From positions 62,001 through 126,000 of the forward strand of contig NZ_BOLS01000003.1 of the NCBI RefSeq assembly GCF_016861785.1: a DNA stretch of 64,000 nt. The letters run 5' to 3'. Position 1 is the first letter of the stretch, and each line of letters opens with the position of its first letter. The notes under the pieces were generated by a model. It was not told where the DNA came from, did not search any database, and was given only the letters and a program-made list of their open reading frames with translations. The DNA is from Lacticaseibacillus mingshuiensis. Lineage in GTDB: Bacteria > Bacillota > Bacilli > Lactobacillales > Lactobacillaceae. Below are positions 3,085-61,567 of the stretch, piece by piece. The position numbers and the translations under genes are program-made.

Positions 3085-3123
3085 AGCGAGACATACTCCC
3101 TAAACGCTCGGCTCCGCACCCTT
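3085..3123 (+). repeat. Right-end fragment of the hairpin repeat family
   Basis: This 39-base piece matches the right arm and tail of the repeat next to it, including CCCTAAACGCTCGGCTCCGC and the terminal GCACCCTT, but lacks the left arm. It looks like the remnant of an older copy at the head of the tandem array. Confidence 0.6.
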
Positions 3124-3138
3124 CCGCAGTTGGGCTCC

Positions 3139-3239
3139 GCCGAGCAGGGGTGGGACATGTAGTCGGCCTGGTCACTCGGTGGCAAGGTGCGCCACCAAGC
3201 GCCCAGGCCGAACTACCTGCCCATCCCTAAACGCTCGGC
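3139..3239 (+). repeat. Hairpin repeat copy 1 (tandem array)
   Basis: A 101-bp imperfect palindrome. Outer arms GCCGAGC/GCTCGGC enclose a second stem (GTAGTCGGCCTGG with CCAGGCCGAACTAC) and an inner hairpin GGTGGC/GCCACC. The flanking linker TCCGCACCCTT..CAGTTGGGCTCC is shared with the next copies. Compared with the other copies, both strands of each stem change together, so the fold is conserved more than the sequence. Confidence 0.85.
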
Positions 3240-3265
3240 TCCGCACCCTTTCGCAGTTGGGCTCC

Positions 3266-3365
3266 GGCCCGCATAGTCGAGGTAGCTAGTTGTCTCGTGC
3301 ACTCGGTGGCTAAGTGCGCCACCAAGCACCCGAGCCAAACTAGCTACTCGACTATCCCGCGGGCC
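3266..3365 (+). repeat. Hairpin repeat copy 2 (tandem array)
   Basis: A 100-bp copy with outer arms GGCCCGC/GCGGGCC, next stem ATAGTCGAG with CTCGACTAT, and the same inner hairpin (GGTGGC/GCCACC). The middle stem is slightly imperfect (TAGTTGTCTCG against CGAGCCAAACTA). It is separated from copy 1 by the 26-base linker that ends in GGGCTCC. Confidence 0.85.
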
Positions 3366-3388
3366 TCCGCACCCTTCAGTTGGGCTCC

Positions 3389-3487
3389 GCGGGGCAGGGA
3401 TGAGACGTCTAGTTGGCTCGTGCACTCGAGGCAAAGTGCGCCTCAAGCACCCGAGCCAAACTAGCCGTTCATCCCTAAGCGCCCCGC
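3389..3487 (+). repeat. Hairpin repeat copy 3 (tandem array)
   Basis: A 99-bp copy with arms GCGGGGC/GCCCCGC, then AGGGATGA/TCATCCCT, CTAGTTGGCTCG/CGAGCCAAACTAG and the inner GAGGC/GCCTC. It ends the array; the typical tail TCCGCACCCTT follows at 3488. The array fills the pdp-cydA gap and could act as a transcript end or as a barrier to read-through. Confidence 0.85.
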
Positions 3488-3545
3488 TCCGCACCCTTCA
3501 GTTCAATTCCCGCTATTTATTTTTACTGAGGTCAAATCCCTTTTT

Positions 3546-3590
3546 ATGGCGCAAGCGTGTATCATTAAGTTGAACGCTTGCGCCATTTTT
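3546..3590 (+). terminator. Hairpin upstream of cydA
   Basis: A perfect 12-bp inverted repeat (3546-3557 with 3575-3586) is followed by five T residues, so it can act as an intrinsic terminator on the plus strand. It lies 85 bases before cydA, after the repeat array. It may insulate the cyd operon from upstream transcription or attenuate it. A TGAAAGCGGTT core, resembling half of a cre site, lies just downstream on the minus strand (about 3598-3610). Confidence 0.6.
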
Positions 3591-3674: not shown

Positions 3675-5099
3675 ATGCTATTTGCGATAGATGTGCTTGA
3701 TCTGGCACGCTTCCAGTTCGCCATGACCACTGTCTTTCACTTCTTTTTCGTCCCGTTCTCGATCGGCATGGCCTTGGTCACCGCGATCATGGAGACCTTG
3801 TTCGTGCTCAAAAAAGACGAGATGTACAAGAAGATGGCTAAGTTCTGGGGCAAGATCTTCCTACTTAGTTTTGCGGTCGGCGTCGTCACAGGGATCATCC
3901 AGGAATTTCAATTTGGGATGAACTGGTCCGACTATTCGCGCTTCATGGGCGATATCTTCGGGGCCCCGCTGGCGATCGAGGCGCTGCTGGCATTTTTCCT
4001 GGAATCGACGTTCATCGGGTTGTGGATGTTCACCTGGGATCGGTTCAAGCCGGCGCTTCATGCGGTGATGATCTGGTTGGTGTGGCTCGGGACAACGCTG
4101 TCGGCAATCTGGATTCTGGCGGCCAACGCGTTCATGCAGCATCCGACCGGGTTTGCGATCAATTCGGAGACTGGGCGCGTGAAGCTGGTCGATTTTATGG
4201 CGGTGATCACCAATCCGCAGCTGTGGGTCGAATTTCCGCATGTGATCTTTGGCGCGTTCACCACGGCTGGATTTGCGGTCGCGGGGATGGCTGCCTGGCA
4301 GTTATGGAAAAAACGTGACGCGGTGTTTTACACGAAGTCGCTGCGCATTGGGCTGTGGGTCGGCCTAGTCGCGGTTGTCGCGGCGATGGGGATGGGCGAT
4401 CTACAGACGCGCTTCATCATCAAGGACCAGCCGATGAAGTTTGCGGCGACGGAAGGCATCTACAAGGATACCGGTGATCCGGCGGCGTGGAGTCTGGTCG
4501 AGTTGATCGACACCGAAGATCACACCACCAAGGCGAACATCGAGGTGCCTTATCTGCTTAGTATTCTCTCTTATCACAAGCTTCATGGCTCGGTGAAAGG
4601 CATGGACACCGTGAATAAGGAGCTCGAGGCAAAATACGGCAAGGATAAGAATTATTATGTGCCGGTCAAGACGCTATTTTGGTCCTTCCGCGTGATGGCA
4701 GGCGGCGGGATGTTGCTGGCGCTGGTCGCGGTGCTCGGCCTGTTTTTCTCGCGGGCCAAGAACAATTCGCTGGCGCGCAAACGCTGGCTCCTGGTGACAC
4801 TTGGGCTGACGCTGTGGCTGCCGTTCCTCATTAATACATGTGGCTGGCTGATCACGGAGCTTGGCCGGTATCCATGGACGGTCTATGGGCTGTACACGAT
4901 CGCCGATTCGATCTCACCGACGACCACCGCGGGCCAGCTGTGGTTCACCAACATCACGTACTTCCTGATCTTCAGCCTGCTCGGTGGGGTGATGATCTAT
5001 TACTGCCGGCGGGTCCTGTTCCACGGGCCGGATGCCGATCTTGACACGGATTACGGCGTGTCGGCGGATCCTTTTGCAAAGGAGGCGTTCGTCAAATGA
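3675..5099 (+). CDS. cydA: Cytochrome bd ubiquinol/menaquinol oxidase subunit I
   Basis: A 474-residue multi-pass membrane protein, the haem- and quinol-binding subunit of cytochrome bd oxidase that reduces oxygen to water. The N-terminus has RFQFAMTTVFHFFFVPF with the haem-ligand histidine, then FPHVIFGAF, KFAATEGIY of the quinol loop and GRYPW (GRQPW-type) near the C-terminal third. Length suits the short Q-loop type of Firmicutes. AAGGAGGAAAAGG precedes the ATG. It overlaps cydB by four bases (ATGA), so the two are translationally coupled. In lactobacilli this enzyme needs haem, and often menaquinone, from outside. Confidence 0.96.
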   Translation: MLFAIDVLDLARFQFAMTTVFHFFFVPFSIGMALVTAIMETLFVLKKDEMYKKMAKFWGKIFLLSFAVGVVTGIIQEFQFGMNWSDYSRFMGDIFGAPLAIEALLAFFLESTFIGLWMFTWDRFKPALHAVMIWLVWLGTTLSAIWILAANAFMQHPTGFAINSETGRVKLVDFMAVITNPQLWVEFPHVIFGAFTTAGFAVAGMAAWQLWKKRDAVFYTKSLRIGLWVGLVAVVAAMGMGDLQTRFIIKDQPMKFAATEGIYKDTGDPAAWSLVELIDTEDHTTKANIEVPYLLSILSYHKLHGSVKGMDTVNKELEAKYGKDKNYYVPVKTLFWSFRVMAGGGMLLALVAVLGLFFSRAKNNSLARKRWLLVTLGLTLWLPFLINTCGWLITELGRYPWTVYGLYTIADSISPTTTAGQLWFTNITYFLIFSLLGGVMIYYCRRVLFHGPDADLDTDYGVSADPFAKEAFVK

Positions 5100-20954: not shown

Positions 20955-21014
20955 ATGCAGCGCGGCTGGCTAGCCTAGCTGCTCGACCATAAACGCGCAC
21001 CTTCGCACCCTTTT
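20955..21014 (+). repeat. Partial hairpin repeat (right half)
   Basis: The segment has the right-half features of the repeat family: GGCTAGCCTAGCTGCTCGACCATAAACGCG-type sequence followed by the tail TTCGCACCCTT. The left half is absent. It lies between pplA and fmnB, inside the rightward EET gene cluster. Confidence 0.5.
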
Positions 21015-24161: not shown

Positions 24162-24172
24162 GCACTGGGTCT

Positions 24173-24205
24173 CCCGCGGGCCTGCGCACCCTTCAGTTGG
24201 GCTAC
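24173..24205 (+). repeat. Right-end remnant of a hairpin repeat
   Basis: CCCGCGGGCCTGCGCACCCTT followed by the linker CAGTTGGGCTAC matches the right arm and linker of copy 2 of the tandem array. It lies directly before a complete copy, so two repeats once stood here. Confidence 0.5.
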
Positions 24206-24303
24206 GCGGGGCAGGGGGGAACGTCTAACTGGGCCTGTCACTCGGGGCGAAGAGCGCCCCAAGCGCCAGGCCCAAGTTAGCCGCTCACCCCTAAGCGCCC
24301 CGC
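24206..24303 (+). repeat. Hairpin repeat copy 4
   Basis: A 98-bp copy with arms GCGGGGC/GCCCCGC, middle stem CTAACTGGGCCTG/CAGGCCCAAGTTAG and inner stem GGGGC/GCCCC. The middle stem differs from copy 3 on both sides while pairing is kept, which is direct evidence of compensatory change. It separates the second dmkA from rpmG. Confidence 0.85.
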
Positions 24304-24381
24304 TGCGCACCCTTCAAATACTTCATAGTTGTCTCACTCGCCTTTTTTTGATATGCTGAAGTGCGAGTATGGAGGTTCAAC

Positions 24382-27604: not shown

Positions 27605-27755
27605 TTGACGCGTCTGACCTGGAATGTTACACTCGTTTTTGTGTTAATTCACTCTGCCTAAGACTCAGGTGGCGCAAGCCTTAATTATCCTGCCGAGGTG
27701 GTATCGGTTCAACAGATACCTCTATGTCTTGGTAGACATGGAGTTTTTTTATACC
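27605..27755 (+). promoter_or_regulatory. L10 leader and promoter of rplJL
   Basis: A promoter (TTGACG 27605-27610, TACACT 27628-27633, 17-base spacing) feeds a leader containing the conserved L10-leader core, GACTCAGGTGGCGCAAGCC-type sequence, and GCCGAGGTGG. It ends in a terminator-like hairpin CTCTATGTCT/AGACATGGAG (27720-27743) with seven T residues. L10(L12)4 binding to this leader is known to control its own operon in Gram-positive bacteria. Confidence 0.85.
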
Positions 27756-27792
27756 TAAAAGAACTTCGATCAACTAACAGGAGGTGAATCAA

Positions 27793-35310: not shown

Positions 35311-35330
35311 TGTTTTTGCCGTAAGGCCTT

Positions 35331-35404
35331 GAGGCAATGATGGCTCATCGAATCGTGTCAGATCCGGAAGGAAGCAGCACTAAGGTGAGTTCGTCATGTG
35401 CCTC
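35331..35404 (+). ncRNA. ffs: Signal recognition particle RNA (4.5S type)
   Basis: The diagnostic apical loop CAGATCCGGAAGGAAGCAGC is present in the middle. GAGGC (35331-35335) pairs with GCCTC (35400-35404), and ATGATGG-type and CGTCAT stems enclose the loop. The length of about 75 bases is the short bacterial form. It binds Ffh for cotranslational targeting. Position between tadA and dnaX is conserved in lactobacilli. Mature ends may extend a few bases. Confidence 0.9.
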
Positions 35405-35425
35405 TTGTTTTATGCCATTATTCAT

Positions 35426-40991: not shown

Positions 40992-41860
40992 TGCAGCGCG
41001 TGTCGAGTTTTGCCGCGCATGAGAGTGGGACGCTTTATTTGGTGCCGACGCCGATCGGCAATCTGGGTGACATGACGCAGCGCGCCATCGACACGCTCCA
41101 GGCCGTTGATCTGATCGCCGCTGAGGACACGCGCAACACGCAAAAGTTGCTCAACCGGTTTGACATCGCCACCAAGCAGATCAGTTTTCATGAACACAAT
41201 ACACAGGCGCGGATTCCGGAGCTCTTGGCCCGCCTTCAAGAAGGACAGAACATCGCCCAACTATCCGATGCCGGCATGCCGTCCATCTCAGATCCGGGCA
41301 AGGAATTGGTGCACGCAGCGATCGAGGTTGGCGTGCCGGTCGTGCCCCTGCCTGGCCCGAATGCCGGATTGACTGCATTGATCGCGTCCGGATTGGTGCC
41401 ACAGCCGTTCCTGTTTTACGGTTTTTTGCCGCGAAAACAGGGGGAGCAGCGCACGGCACTTGAGGCGCTGAACAACGAGCGGGCCACCATGATCTTTTAC
41501 GAATCACCATTTCGAGTGGCGAAGACGCTGACGATGATGCAAACAGTGTTCGGCGACCGCCAAGCTGTTTTGGCCAGGGAACTGACCAAGAAATTCGAGG
41601 AGTTTTTGCGTGGGACGCTTAGCGAATTGGCGGCGGCGATGTCGGAAGAGGCGCGCGGCGAATTCGTGATCTTGGTGGCCGGTGCACCGGATGAGCCGCT
41701 GCAGGCGCCTGACTTACCGCTAAAGGCGCAAGTCGAGGCTGCCATTGCAACCGGGGCGCGGCCGAATGATGCGATCAAGACAGTGGCCAAACGCAACGGG
41801 GTCAAGAAACAAGTCGTCTACAACGCCTATCACGAGTTGGATGAGGGGGATGCACAATGA
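40991..41860 (+). CDS. rsmI: 16S rRNA (cytidine-1402-2'-O)-methyltransferase
   Basis: A 289-residue SAM enzyme with TLYLVPTPIGNLGDMT and LPGPNAGLTAL, the hallmark motifs of the RsmI family, and DAGMPSISDPG between them. It methylates the ribosomal P site. It overlaps the following thioesterase gene by four bases. Confidence 0.95.
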   Translation: MQRVSSFAAHESGTLYLVPTPIGNLGDMTQRAIDTLQAVDLIAAEDTRNTQKLLNRFDIATKQISFHEHNTQARIPELLARLQEGQNIAQLSDAGMPSISDPGKELVHAAIEVGVPVVPLPGPNAGLTALIASGLVPQPFLFYGFLPRKQGEQRTALEALNNERATMIFYESPFRVAKTLTMMQTVFGDRQAVLARELTKKFEEFLRGTLSELAAAMSEEARGEFVILVAGAPDEPLQAPDLPLKAQVEAAIATGARPNDAIKTVAKRNGVKKQVVYNAYHELDEGDAQ

Positions 41861-44464: not shown

Positions 44465-44484
44465 GAAGCCGCACCAAAAAATAA

Positions 44485-44605
44485 AGGAGTAGGTTGCCGT
44501 GCGTTAAGTGCCGCTGGAACGGAATGTGAACAGCGGACGAAGGCTTTGGCCGCGGTACGGCAGCCGCATTCGCCTATTGGGTTAGGCGTCTCCTACAAAG
44601 GGAGA
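44485..44605 (+). promoter_or_regulatory. Tetrahydrofolate riboswitch
   Basis: The THF-riboswitch core is recognisable: GGAGTAGG at the 5' end, GCGTTAAGTGCCG, AACGGAATGTG and GGACGAAGG, then CTCC at the 3' end. GGAG (44486-44489) pairs with CTCC (44590-44593) to close the aptamer. The same TCTCC (44589-44593) can pair instead with GGAGA (44601-44605), which is the folT ribosome-binding site. The sequence thus shows the translational switch directly, although which state folate favours should follow the known family (off when bound). Confidence 0.88.
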
Positions 44606-52634: not shown

Positions 52635-52649
52635 AAGAAAGGGTGTGAA

Positions 52650-52747
52650 AGCCCGCGGGATGGTCGGTCGGGTAGCTTGGCTCGGGTGCTTGAGGCGCTC
52701 TTCGCCTCGAGTGCACGAGTCAGCTAGACGATCCGACCATGCGGGCT
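52650..52747 (-). repeat. Hairpin repeat copy 5 (reverse orientation)
   Basis: A 98-bp copy with arms AGCCCGC/GCGGGCT, next stem GATGGTCGG/CCGACCAT and inner GAGGCG/CGCCTC. Read on the minus strand it matches copy 2 of the first array. The flank GGGTGTG is the complement of the family's CACACCC tail. Confidence 0.85.
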
Positions 52748-52770
52748 GGAACCCGACTATAGGGTGTGAA

Positions 52771-52867
52771 AGCCCGCGGGATGGTCGAGCAGATAGGCTA
52801 GCCTGGCGCTTGGGGCGCACTTAGCCCCGAGTGACGGGCGTACCTATCTGCCTCGACCATGCGGGCT
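52771..52867 (-). repeat. Hairpin repeat copy 6 (reverse orientation)
   Basis: A 97-bp copy with arms AGCCCGC/GCGGGCT, then GATGGTCGAG/CTCGACCAT, CAGATAGG/CCTATCTG and inner GGGGC/GCCCC. The CAGATAGG/CCTATCTG stem is unique to this copy yet fully paired. Confidence 0.85.
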
Positions 52868-52880
52868 GGAACCCGACAAA

Positions 52881-52921
52881 AGGGTGTGGAGGGGCGCGTT
52901 TAGGGGTGAGCAGTTCTCACC
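52881..52921 (-). repeat. Partial hairpin repeat
   Basis: AGGGTGTGGAGGGGCGCGTTTAGGGGTGAG-type sequence matches one end of the family (arm plus AACGCG and CACCC tail), with no matching second half. It ends the short reverse array. Confidence 0.5.
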
Positions 52922-57055: not shown

Positions 57056-57147
57056 AAAATCGGGGGCTGGGACGCAAACGCCGTAGCAGGTCACGCGTAC
57101 GAGCCAAGCTACCCGCCCGACCATACCCGCGGGCTTCCACACCCTTT
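57056..57147 (+). repeat. Partial hairpin repeat (right half)
   Basis: ACGAGCCAAGCTACCCGCCCGACCATACCCGCGGGC-type sequence and the tail TTCCACACCCTT match the right half of the reverse copies; the left half is degraded. It lies directly at the lactate oxidase 3' end. Confidence 0.55.
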
Positions 57148-59130: not shown

Positions 59131-59173
59131 TGGCCAGCTATCTGCTCACCCATCCCACGCACCCGCGCACCCT
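59131..59173 (+). repeat. Right-end remnant of a hairpin repeat
   Basis: GGCCAGCTATCTGCTCACCCATCCC-type sequence and the tail CGCGCACCCTT match the right half of the family. It stands directly before a full copy, as at 24173-24205. Confidence 0.5.
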
Positions 59174-59188
59174 TATTAGTCAGGCTAC

Positions 59189-59289
59189 GCGGGGCAGATC
59201 TGAGGCAGGTAGTCGTCCTGGTCGCCCGATGGCCAAGGACGCCATCAAACGCCCAGGCCGCACTGCCTGCTCAGACCTAACCGCCCCGC
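59189..59289 (+). repeat. Hairpin repeat copy 7
   Basis: A 101-bp copy with arms GCGGGGC/GCCCCGC, then AGATCTGAG/CTCAGACCT, GGCAGGTAG...CCTGG/CCAGG...CTGCC and inner GATGGC/GCCATC. The inner stem differs from all other copies but remains paired. Confidence 0.85.
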
Positions 59290-59298
59290 TTCGCACCC

Positions 59299-59931
59299 TT
59301 ATTCTCCTCGCGGCAGCACGCGCAGGAAGGTGTCGTTTGGAATGCGGATGATCGAGTAGCGTTGGGCAACGTGGCCCACGTGCATCCCGAGGCCGTTGAG
59401 GAATGTCGGCTTGTAGGTCGCCGTGAATGTGGCGATCCAGGCTTTTTCCTCAGTCTTATCCAGCTTCTTGAGCTTTTTCAGCGACCACGGATAGCCCGCC
59501 GCCTGTACATTTAGCGGATCCGTTCCATCGCTGATGGTCGCGTTTCGGCTTGTGATGGCGTATTTTGCGCCTTCGCGCCAATAGGAAAAATACTTGACCG
59601 GGTGATTGCCATTGCCTGACCGCGCCGTCACATAGTAGGAGCGATTCGTGTTGACCTGCAGGACGAGCGGGGCGTAGCTGTAACTACGGCTGACCGTCGC
59701 CTTGTCTGCATAATCGACCTGGCGGAAAAATGAGACCCAGCCCATCCCGACGATAGCGGCCAGCAACACGATCACTTCGAGCGTATCAAGGAGATGGTTG
59801 CGGTGCCGCCATTCTGTTTGGCGTGTGATCACCATTTTAATGTGGCGGTTGCGGATGTTAAAGATCACGAAGATCAAGTAGATCGCCAGTAGCACCCAAG
59901 CGCCAAGGCCGATCAAGTTCCATGCGTTCAT
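59299..59931 (-). CDS. LVIS_2131-like membrane protein
   Basis: A 210-residue protein with two N-terminal membrane segments (residues about 5-25 and 48-66) and an external C-terminal domain rich in Tyr and Asn (SRSYSYAPLVLQVNTNRSYYV). It resembles a lactobacillus family of unknown function. The ATG at 59931 follows AAAGGTGA. It is 6 bases after nox and likely in its operon. Confidence 0.75.
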   Translation of the reverse strand: MNAWNLIGLGAWVLLAIYLIFVIFNIRNRHIKMVITRQTEWRHRNHLLDTLEVIVLLAAIVGMGWVSFFRQVDYADKATVSRSYSYAPLVLQVNTNRSYYVTARSGNGNHPVKYFSYWREGAKYAITSRNATISDGTDPLNVQAAGYPWSLKKLKKLDKTEEKAWIATFTATYKPTFLNGLGMHVGHVAQRYSIIRIPNDTFLRVLPRGE

Positions 59932-61397: not shown

Positions 61398-61567
61398 TAA
61401 GGGGTGCGAAGGACGCGGCATTTAGGTCTGAGGAGCTACTGCGGCCTGAGCGTTTGATGGCGCACTTGGCCATCAAGTGCACGAGACAACCAGATACCTC
61501 GACCATGCGGGCCGCAACCTAACTGAGGGTGCGGATGCCCGCGGAATGGTGAGCAGCTCGCGTGAGG
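61398..61567 (-). repeat. Chimeric and partial hairpin repeats
   Basis: A reverse-orientation copy (61400-61520) has a well-paired inner stem (GATGGC/GCCATC) but outer arms of different subtypes (GACGCGGC against GCGGGCCGC), as if two copies had recombined. A second partial copy follows (61524-61567). This is the only case lying between divergent genes. Confidence 0.6.

Follow-up and report, generated by a model that had tools for sequence, protein, structure and literature searches.

The window analyzed here is a stretch of 64,000 nt from one contig (C3) of the Lacticaseibacillus mingshuiensis genome (G000; 2.76 Mb in 56 contigs). Downstream of pdp it carries a tandem array of a structured repeat. 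The first-pass annotation had described three complete copies and a fragment at this place, and we recovered three full units and a stub at 3097-3497; the further copies, the chimera and the partial copies elsewhere in the window were each present close to where they had first been noticed (Table 1). When the stub at the 5′ edge of the pdp array was aligned to the unit, it scored 26, whereas 30 shuffled flanks scored 9-14. A terminator-like perfect 13-bp inverted repeat followed by T's (3546-3590) separates the array from cydA; it is also found in the sister species, Lacticaseibacillus yichunensis 33-1 (G021; 90-94% identical in the window's first 20 kb). The window also contains a THF riboswitch (RF01831, 81.5 bits) at 44483-44577, an L10 leader at 27639-27758 and a small SRP RNA at 35320-35417.

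Table 1. Units, partial copies and stubs of the repeat in the window. CM, covariance model.
Feature	Position	Strand	Remarks
Stub (unit 3′ end), 5′ edge of pdp array	3097-3122	+	aligns to unit positions 97-122
Full unit 1, class I	3128-3249	+	outer arms GCCGAGC/GCTCGGC; nhmmer 103 bits, CM 140 bits
Full unit 2, class II	3255-3375	+	outer arms GGCCCGC/GCGGGCC; nhmmer 97 bits, CM 129 bits
Full unit 3, class I	3378-3497	+	outer arms GCGGGGC/GCCCCGC; nhmmer 94 bits, CM 124 bits
Better-folding strand of pdp array (complement)	3085-3500	-	predicted RNA folding energy -254.7 kcal/mol, against -218.2 on the + strand
Partial copy, unit positions 79-122	20968-21011	+	nhmmer
Stub preceding the unit at 24195	24172-24192	+	stub alignment
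Full unit, class I	24195-24313	+	nhmmer 72 bits
Full unit, class II	52640-52758	-	nhmmer 72 bits
Full unit, class II	52761-52877	-	nhmmer 63 bits
Stub, 5′ edge of minus-strand array	52881-52913	-	stub alignment
Partial copy, unit positions 68-122	57091-57145	+	nhmmer
Stub preceding the unit at 59178	59136-59173	+	stub alignment
Full unit, class I	59178-59299	+	nhmmer; ends at stop codon of a minus-strand gene
Chimeric unit, left arm class II and right arm class I	61402-61524	-	sequence; nhmmer 77 bits
Stub preceding the chimeric unit	61526-61558	-	stub alignment

The repeat had been put at roughly 100 bp; we measured approximately 122 nt for a full unit, which reads AGTTGGGCTCCG, then a long hairpin, then CTCCGCACCCT, so that a 101-nt hairpin cassette (positions 12-112) stands between linkers at positions 1-11 and 113-122. 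BLAST gave 55 matches to the repeat in the source genome, and iterative nhmmer searches over 320 kb (the window plus 34 stretches surrounding BLAST matches, approximately 12% of the genome) identified 119 copies, partials included, in 49 arrays of 1 to 5 units; by covariance model, the genome-wide copy number is at least 119. Neighboring units are separated by spacers of 1-8 nt, and 83 of the 137 spacers counted (up to 9 nt) measured 3 or 6 nt. Arrays were grouped by strand, and none in this genome has a copy in the opposite orientation within 1 kb. A CRISPR-like reading, with a constant linker and a variable insert, was given little weight; the inserts are 101-nt hairpins common to several arrays. 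Inspection of array flanks by eye showed no conserved promoter belonging to the repeat.

At their 5′ ends, 35 of the 49 arrays begin with a truncated unit. For 24 of these, the truncated unit is an adjacent 3′-end stub scoring above all 30 shuffled flanks, and in the remaining 11 the array's first unit lacks part of its own 5′ side. The reverse arrangement, a 5′ stub above the shuffled-flank level following the array, was found at none of the 49. These 5′-truncated stubs prompted us to consider target-primed reverse transcription, which was not supported, because one sister-species stub resembles a deletion derivative, one site carries a stub only, and at two loci (L022 and L029) a 5′ piece also lies upstream, the pattern expected from internal deletion.

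The first-pass annotation had taken the variable but matching arms to indicate selection on structure. We assessed this on 54 diverse units of the source genome and the sister species, aligned by sequence only, with a structure of 43 pairs. Across these pairs 91.8% of cells were paired, and in the outer helix 95.8%, so that the statement that the outer arms always carry the complement was largely right and slightly too strong. Two-sided changes occurred in 29 of the 43 pairs. Tested statistically, this covariation amounted to 394 two-sided cells against 135.5 ± 11 after shuffling, with none of 500 shuffles reaching 394, and sliding the partner by 1-3 columns abolished the signal. When corrected mutual information was computed blind to the structure, the top 10 of 7503 column pairs, and 17 of the top 20, were structure pairs. 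These results demonstrate that the pairing of the hairpin arms is backed by covariation far beyond shuffled and slid controls, as expected under selection on structure. Given this covariation and the 55 BLAST matches, the copies are not a product of chance. Copies from other species gave 703 two-sided cells against 199 ± 11 after shuffling, in an alignment (A2) that was fitted to the covariance model and whose pair counts are therefore biased in favor of the structure; of the 63 rows of A2, the six lowest are included in this count and were excluded from the wobble, strand-folding and apical-loop counts. The apical loop recurs across species.

The two strands of the repeat are not equivalent. 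The structure includes fixed irregular positions, C50·A70, T31·C90 and the T-N-C mismatches of the linker, and where the strand on which the repeat was first read has fixed C·A and T·C mismatches, the complement has G·U and G·A. In the source genome, mean folding energy was -63 kcal/mol for the strand first read and -75 kcal/mol for the complement, and the mean number of G·U pairs per copy was 0.7 and 4.4, respectively. Using RNA parameters, the complement was the more stable strand in 101 of 103, 53 of 53 and 54 of 56 copies in three sets (208/212 together); with DNA parameters this was so for 103/103 and 57/57 copies in two of the three sets. Thus, one strand is predicted to be the better folder in nearly every copy, which would fit RNA and single-stranded DNA alike. 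At well-paired positions of the strand first read, we counted 33 G·U and 42 A·C combinations in alignment A1 (p = 0.36), and 18 and 41 in A2, whose rows are not independent (p = 0.004). Since the wobble count in A1 is not significant alone, the folding advantage of the complement probably rests largely on the fixed irregular positions. An RNA of the strand first read was rejected as the acting form, as it shows no wobble preference at well-paired positions and its complement folds better. In a further species (G042), where replication strands were assigned from a contig that starts with dnaA with the terminus assumed at half, the folding strand lay on the lagging-strand template in 25 of 71 arrays, the strand first read being leading in the other 46 (Fisher p = 0.018); this is contrary to the single-strand preference of IS200-like transposons. 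The corresponding bias was not significant in G005 (p = 0.19) or G020 (p = 0.51).

The covariance model found matches in 28 of 30 Lacticaseibacillus genomes, from 1 to at least 119 per genome; the copies from other species are widely divergent in sequence and keep the architecture. Outside the genus, 4 of 116 other genomes sampled from the order gave 1-3 weak matches each, in a search whose stricter filters lose weak matches and whose matches were judged by sequence only. Three loci from other genera (L165, L166, and L170) have a similar hairpin layout, AGTCGGGTTC...CACACCCT or its complement, and on this resemblance may be distant relatives. A pattern scan returned at least 72 stretches, 48 from L. 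yichunensis, 2 from L. jixianensis and 22 single matches in unrelated organisms, the last of which we took as chance. With a G042 copy as the only query, similar repeats were found on 14 plasmids of Lacticaseibacillus and Pediococcus. In the three plasmids that were opened (H1, H12, and H14), copies are embedded in mannose-PTS operons, either separating IIB from IIC or preceding DUF956, and these copies may have travelled along with the operons. L. paracasei plasmid pWX3 (L231, approximately 4001-4247) apparently carries two units and pieces between the PTS IID gene and DUF956. Phages gave no match to the window array. The first-pass annotation had found no name for the family, and we likewise found none: no family among the 4227 of Rfam 15 matched the repeat at its gathering score (six sub-threshold microRNA matches were taken as chance), and the titles and abstract openings retrieved on Lactobacillus repeats, VNTRs and structured RNAs contain no description of it.

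Arrays change rapidly between closely related genomes. Within the analyzed loci, unit number, partials included, differed from that of the sister species in 21 of 27 matched arrays; loci of both species were chosen for carrying copies, which biases site conservation towards sites occupied in both. One difference is clean and lies in the T-tract of a terminator-like hairpin, near position 41251 of source-genome contig C8. Here the sister species has 121 nt extra, made up of a unit of 116 nt that runs from AGT to CACCC and an additional TTTTT. TTTTT flanks the extra unit on both sides at this locus only, and precise loss would look identical to insertion. Elsewhere, a site with only a stub in the source genome has two units in the sister species, a third site has a degraded copy in the source genome, and at window position 59178 all that the sister species retains is the unit's 3′ part, at the same stop codon.

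We analyzed the location of arrays relative to genes with a purpose-written hexamer caller, used in a looser version for G042. None of the 49 source-genome arrays and none of the 21 sister-species arrays extended more than 20 nt into a predicted gene, and the description of all copies as intergenic holds for the arrays of the source genome; in G042, 6 of 47 arrays overlapped a gene by more than 25 nt with the looser caller. It had also been stated that most copies lie at 3′ ends of genes. While literally true, this reflects no enrichment, as array gap classes in the source genome equal the background: divergent gaps made up 7 of 45 array gaps and 23 of 117 other gaps of at least 60 nt (p = 0.65), and convergent gaps 8 of 45 against a background of 23 of 117. 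We therefore rejected enrichment at gene 3′ ends. With the strand first read taken as the orientation, 12 of 17 source-genome arrays whose downstream gene opposes them end 6 nt or less from the stop codon of that gene, a closeness that may be partly automatic because ORFs entering the repeat may meet a stop there.

An alternative explanation would be that the repeats are multiplied intrinsic terminators, in which the hairpin and a T-rich sequence end transcription at gene ends. T is common after the unit, the only clean case of a unit with an added TTTTT sits in a terminator-like T-tract, and 7 of 11 relatives lacking the pdp array show, by eye, a terminator-like hairpin downstream of pdp. The window array, however, is followed by its own separate terminator-like hairpin, the plasmid copies stand between genes of one operon, and convergent gaps are used no more than the background predicts, and we consider this explanation very unlikely.

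A functional RNA element, whose hairpins would protect, process or tune mRNAs or be freed as small RNAs from the complement strand, deserves more weight, even if we think it doubtful. REP elements located between cistrons are known to act on mRNAs. Consistent with such a role are the covariation across species (on the alignment fitted to the model), the G·U pairs kept on one strand, the recurring apical loop, and the copies within mannose-PTS operons in the three plasmids opened; in G042, moreover, the distance from the array end to the following start codon is 15-31 nt for 10 of 21 same-direction arrays. Other observations argue against it. In same-direction gaps of the source genome, the better-folding complement strand is antisense to both neighboring genes in 21 of 30 cases and sense in 9 (in G042 it is antisense to both in 21 of 34), the quality of the fold does not vary with gene orientation (p = 0.25), and gap classes equal the background. 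Arrays also turn over quickly, and only 2 of 28 pdp loci have a repeat match downstream (model E-value 0.01). The first-pass annotation had left the choice between an RNA element and a mobilized palindromic unit undecided; the strand orientation in same-direction gaps, orientation-independent folding, background gap classes, array turnover and the one clean unit difference make an element acting on neighboring mRNAs the less favored of the two and a mobile palindrome the favored one.

Comparison of units within and between arrays revealed two tiers in the unit. Among 105 full units of the source genome (91 within-array and 5369 between-array pairs, assessed by permutation), linkers were more alike within arrays than between them (z = 6.3 and 5.6), and so were spacers. 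The hairpin arms tested showed no within-array excess (z = -1.3 to 0.3), and the apical region was mildly more alike within arrays (z = 3.2). Column by column, the hairpin foot (positions 12 and 113) marks the switch, with single inner columns reaching z of 2-3 in either direction. Linkers and spacers thus belong to the array and hairpin arms do not. Spacers also resemble the 3′ flank of their own array (2.84 of 4 bases, against 2.24 ± 0.12). The exchange of hairpins between arrays is only partial, since for 23 of 60 source-genome hairpins the best match lies in the corresponding sister array, where chance predicts 1; 41 of the 60 have a match of at least 90% somewhere. Hairpins of neighboring units tend to alternate in class: with classes I and II assigned from unit position 20 only, class differed in 60 of 89 neighboring pairs in the analyzed loci, compared with 44.7 ± 4.7 after permutation (p = 0.001). 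Neighbors with identical outer arms were no less frequent than expected (16 of 91; expectation 11.1).

These features could be produced by a dedicated exchange system, in which array-specific linkers would hold interchangeable hairpin cassettes and a Lacticaseibacillus factor, recognizing the folded complement strand by its shape, would move the hairpins between sites and keep the classes of neighbors different; we regard this as unlikely. A passive origin, whereby recombination spreads the copies and template switching during replication keeps the arms complementary without selection, is also unlikely. Template switching can make compensatory changes in a single step (PMC8794818). Hairpins do move between arrays here, as passive spread would have it. 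Copying from arm to arm would nevertheless tend to erase C50·A70, T31·C90 and the T-N-C mismatches, which persist in place and form G·U or G·A on just one of the strands.

We compared the family with known repeat systems. REP/BIME elements with their RAYT transposases share with it high copy number, intergenic location, palindromic form, mosaic arrays, alternating hairpin types and compensatory arm changes (PMC2817692). A REP unit is mostly 20-50 nt (PMC12306157), compared with 122 nt here, and REP/BIME arrays alternate orientation, whereas in the source genome hairpin class tends to alternate and no oppositely oriented copy lies within 1 kb of an array. A GTAG-like head was absent from the 122-nt unit, as judged by eye. 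The hallmark of a RAYT is a rayt gene flanked by two inverted REP copies (PMC2817692). We sought a transposase of REP type linked to the repeat without success: at none of the three Y1_Tnp loci were two inverted repeat copies found on either side of the transposase. At the complete locus (L049, 324-1911), an IS605-type TnpA neighbors a TnpB that has OrfB and Cas12f1-like TNB domains; the pair lies approximately 1.3 kb from the nearest copy, with model matches on one side only, and RAYT was rejected as a partner. The stretches around the other two (L050 and L051), cut by contig ends, contain no model matches; these two Y1_Tnp matches lie near contig ends and may stem from a single IS present at breaks in the assembly.

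MITEs such as ERIC (127 bp), RUP and Correia elements (described in part in PMC10969869) resemble the family in size, intergenic sites and a stable hairpin, and perhaps in target duplication, for which the TTTTT on both sides of the unit at one locus is a candidate. They possess terminal inverted repeats, which we did not see by eye in the unit studied here: its ends, AGTTGGGCTCC and CTCCGCACCCT, have no inverted match beyond GGGC/GC(A)CCC, although the whole unit is an imperfect palindrome. The family also differs from MITEs in forming tandem arrays, in which linkers are specific to the array and hairpins are exchanged. No parent IS was found among the Y1 transposases and integron integrases sought. 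Within the same order, the BOX elements of Streptococcus pneumoniae are modular intergenic hairpin repeats built of boxA, boxB and boxC modules, in contrast to the single kind of unit with a varying hairpin that repeats here, and the EFAR repeats of Enterococcus faecalis, also palindromic and intergenic, are similar by description. Integron attC sites function as a folded single strand, conserved in shape and variable in sequence; here, in contrast, there are no cassette genes, and the core site is not conserved between species. An integron integrase was rejected as a partner, as the 13 partial tyrosine-recombinase matches all fell below the cut-off and all 14 control genomes gave matches of the same kind. 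The family thus works like REP/BIME or MITE elements and yet lacks their defining features here, as it has no tie to a RAYT and no terminal inverted repeats by eye.

Taken together, structure that is independent of orientation, site turnover, shared hairpins and one clean difference of a unit plus a duplication are best fitted by a non-autonomous mobile hairpin family. The similar copies on 14 plasmids of lactic acid bacteria also speak for it. We give about an even chance to the reading that these short palindromic repeats, non-coding and arranged in arrays, belong to one family that is found across Lacticaseibacillus and spreads non-autonomously. In such a family, a folded single strand, either single-stranded DNA or RNA of the complement strand, would be recognized by a putative factor acting in trans, and new units would enter beside an existing copy, duplicating a few flanking bases. 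Insertion of foreign whole units alone leaves array-specific linkers unexplained, so that the scheme calls for local duplication or conversion as well. Hairpins could be swapped when recombination occurs through the conserved linkers, and products with unmatched arms would be lost. A use to the host is possible in this scheme and not required.

If this reading is correct, the repeat would be a large, genus-wide family of short palindromic repeats in bacteria that are widely used in food and as probiotics, and would offer many natural compensatory variants of one structure. The difference between local linkers and roaming hairpins would make both the spread of palindromes and the upkeep of arm pairing testable by comparison of strains, and the fast turnover of arrays could serve as a typing marker.
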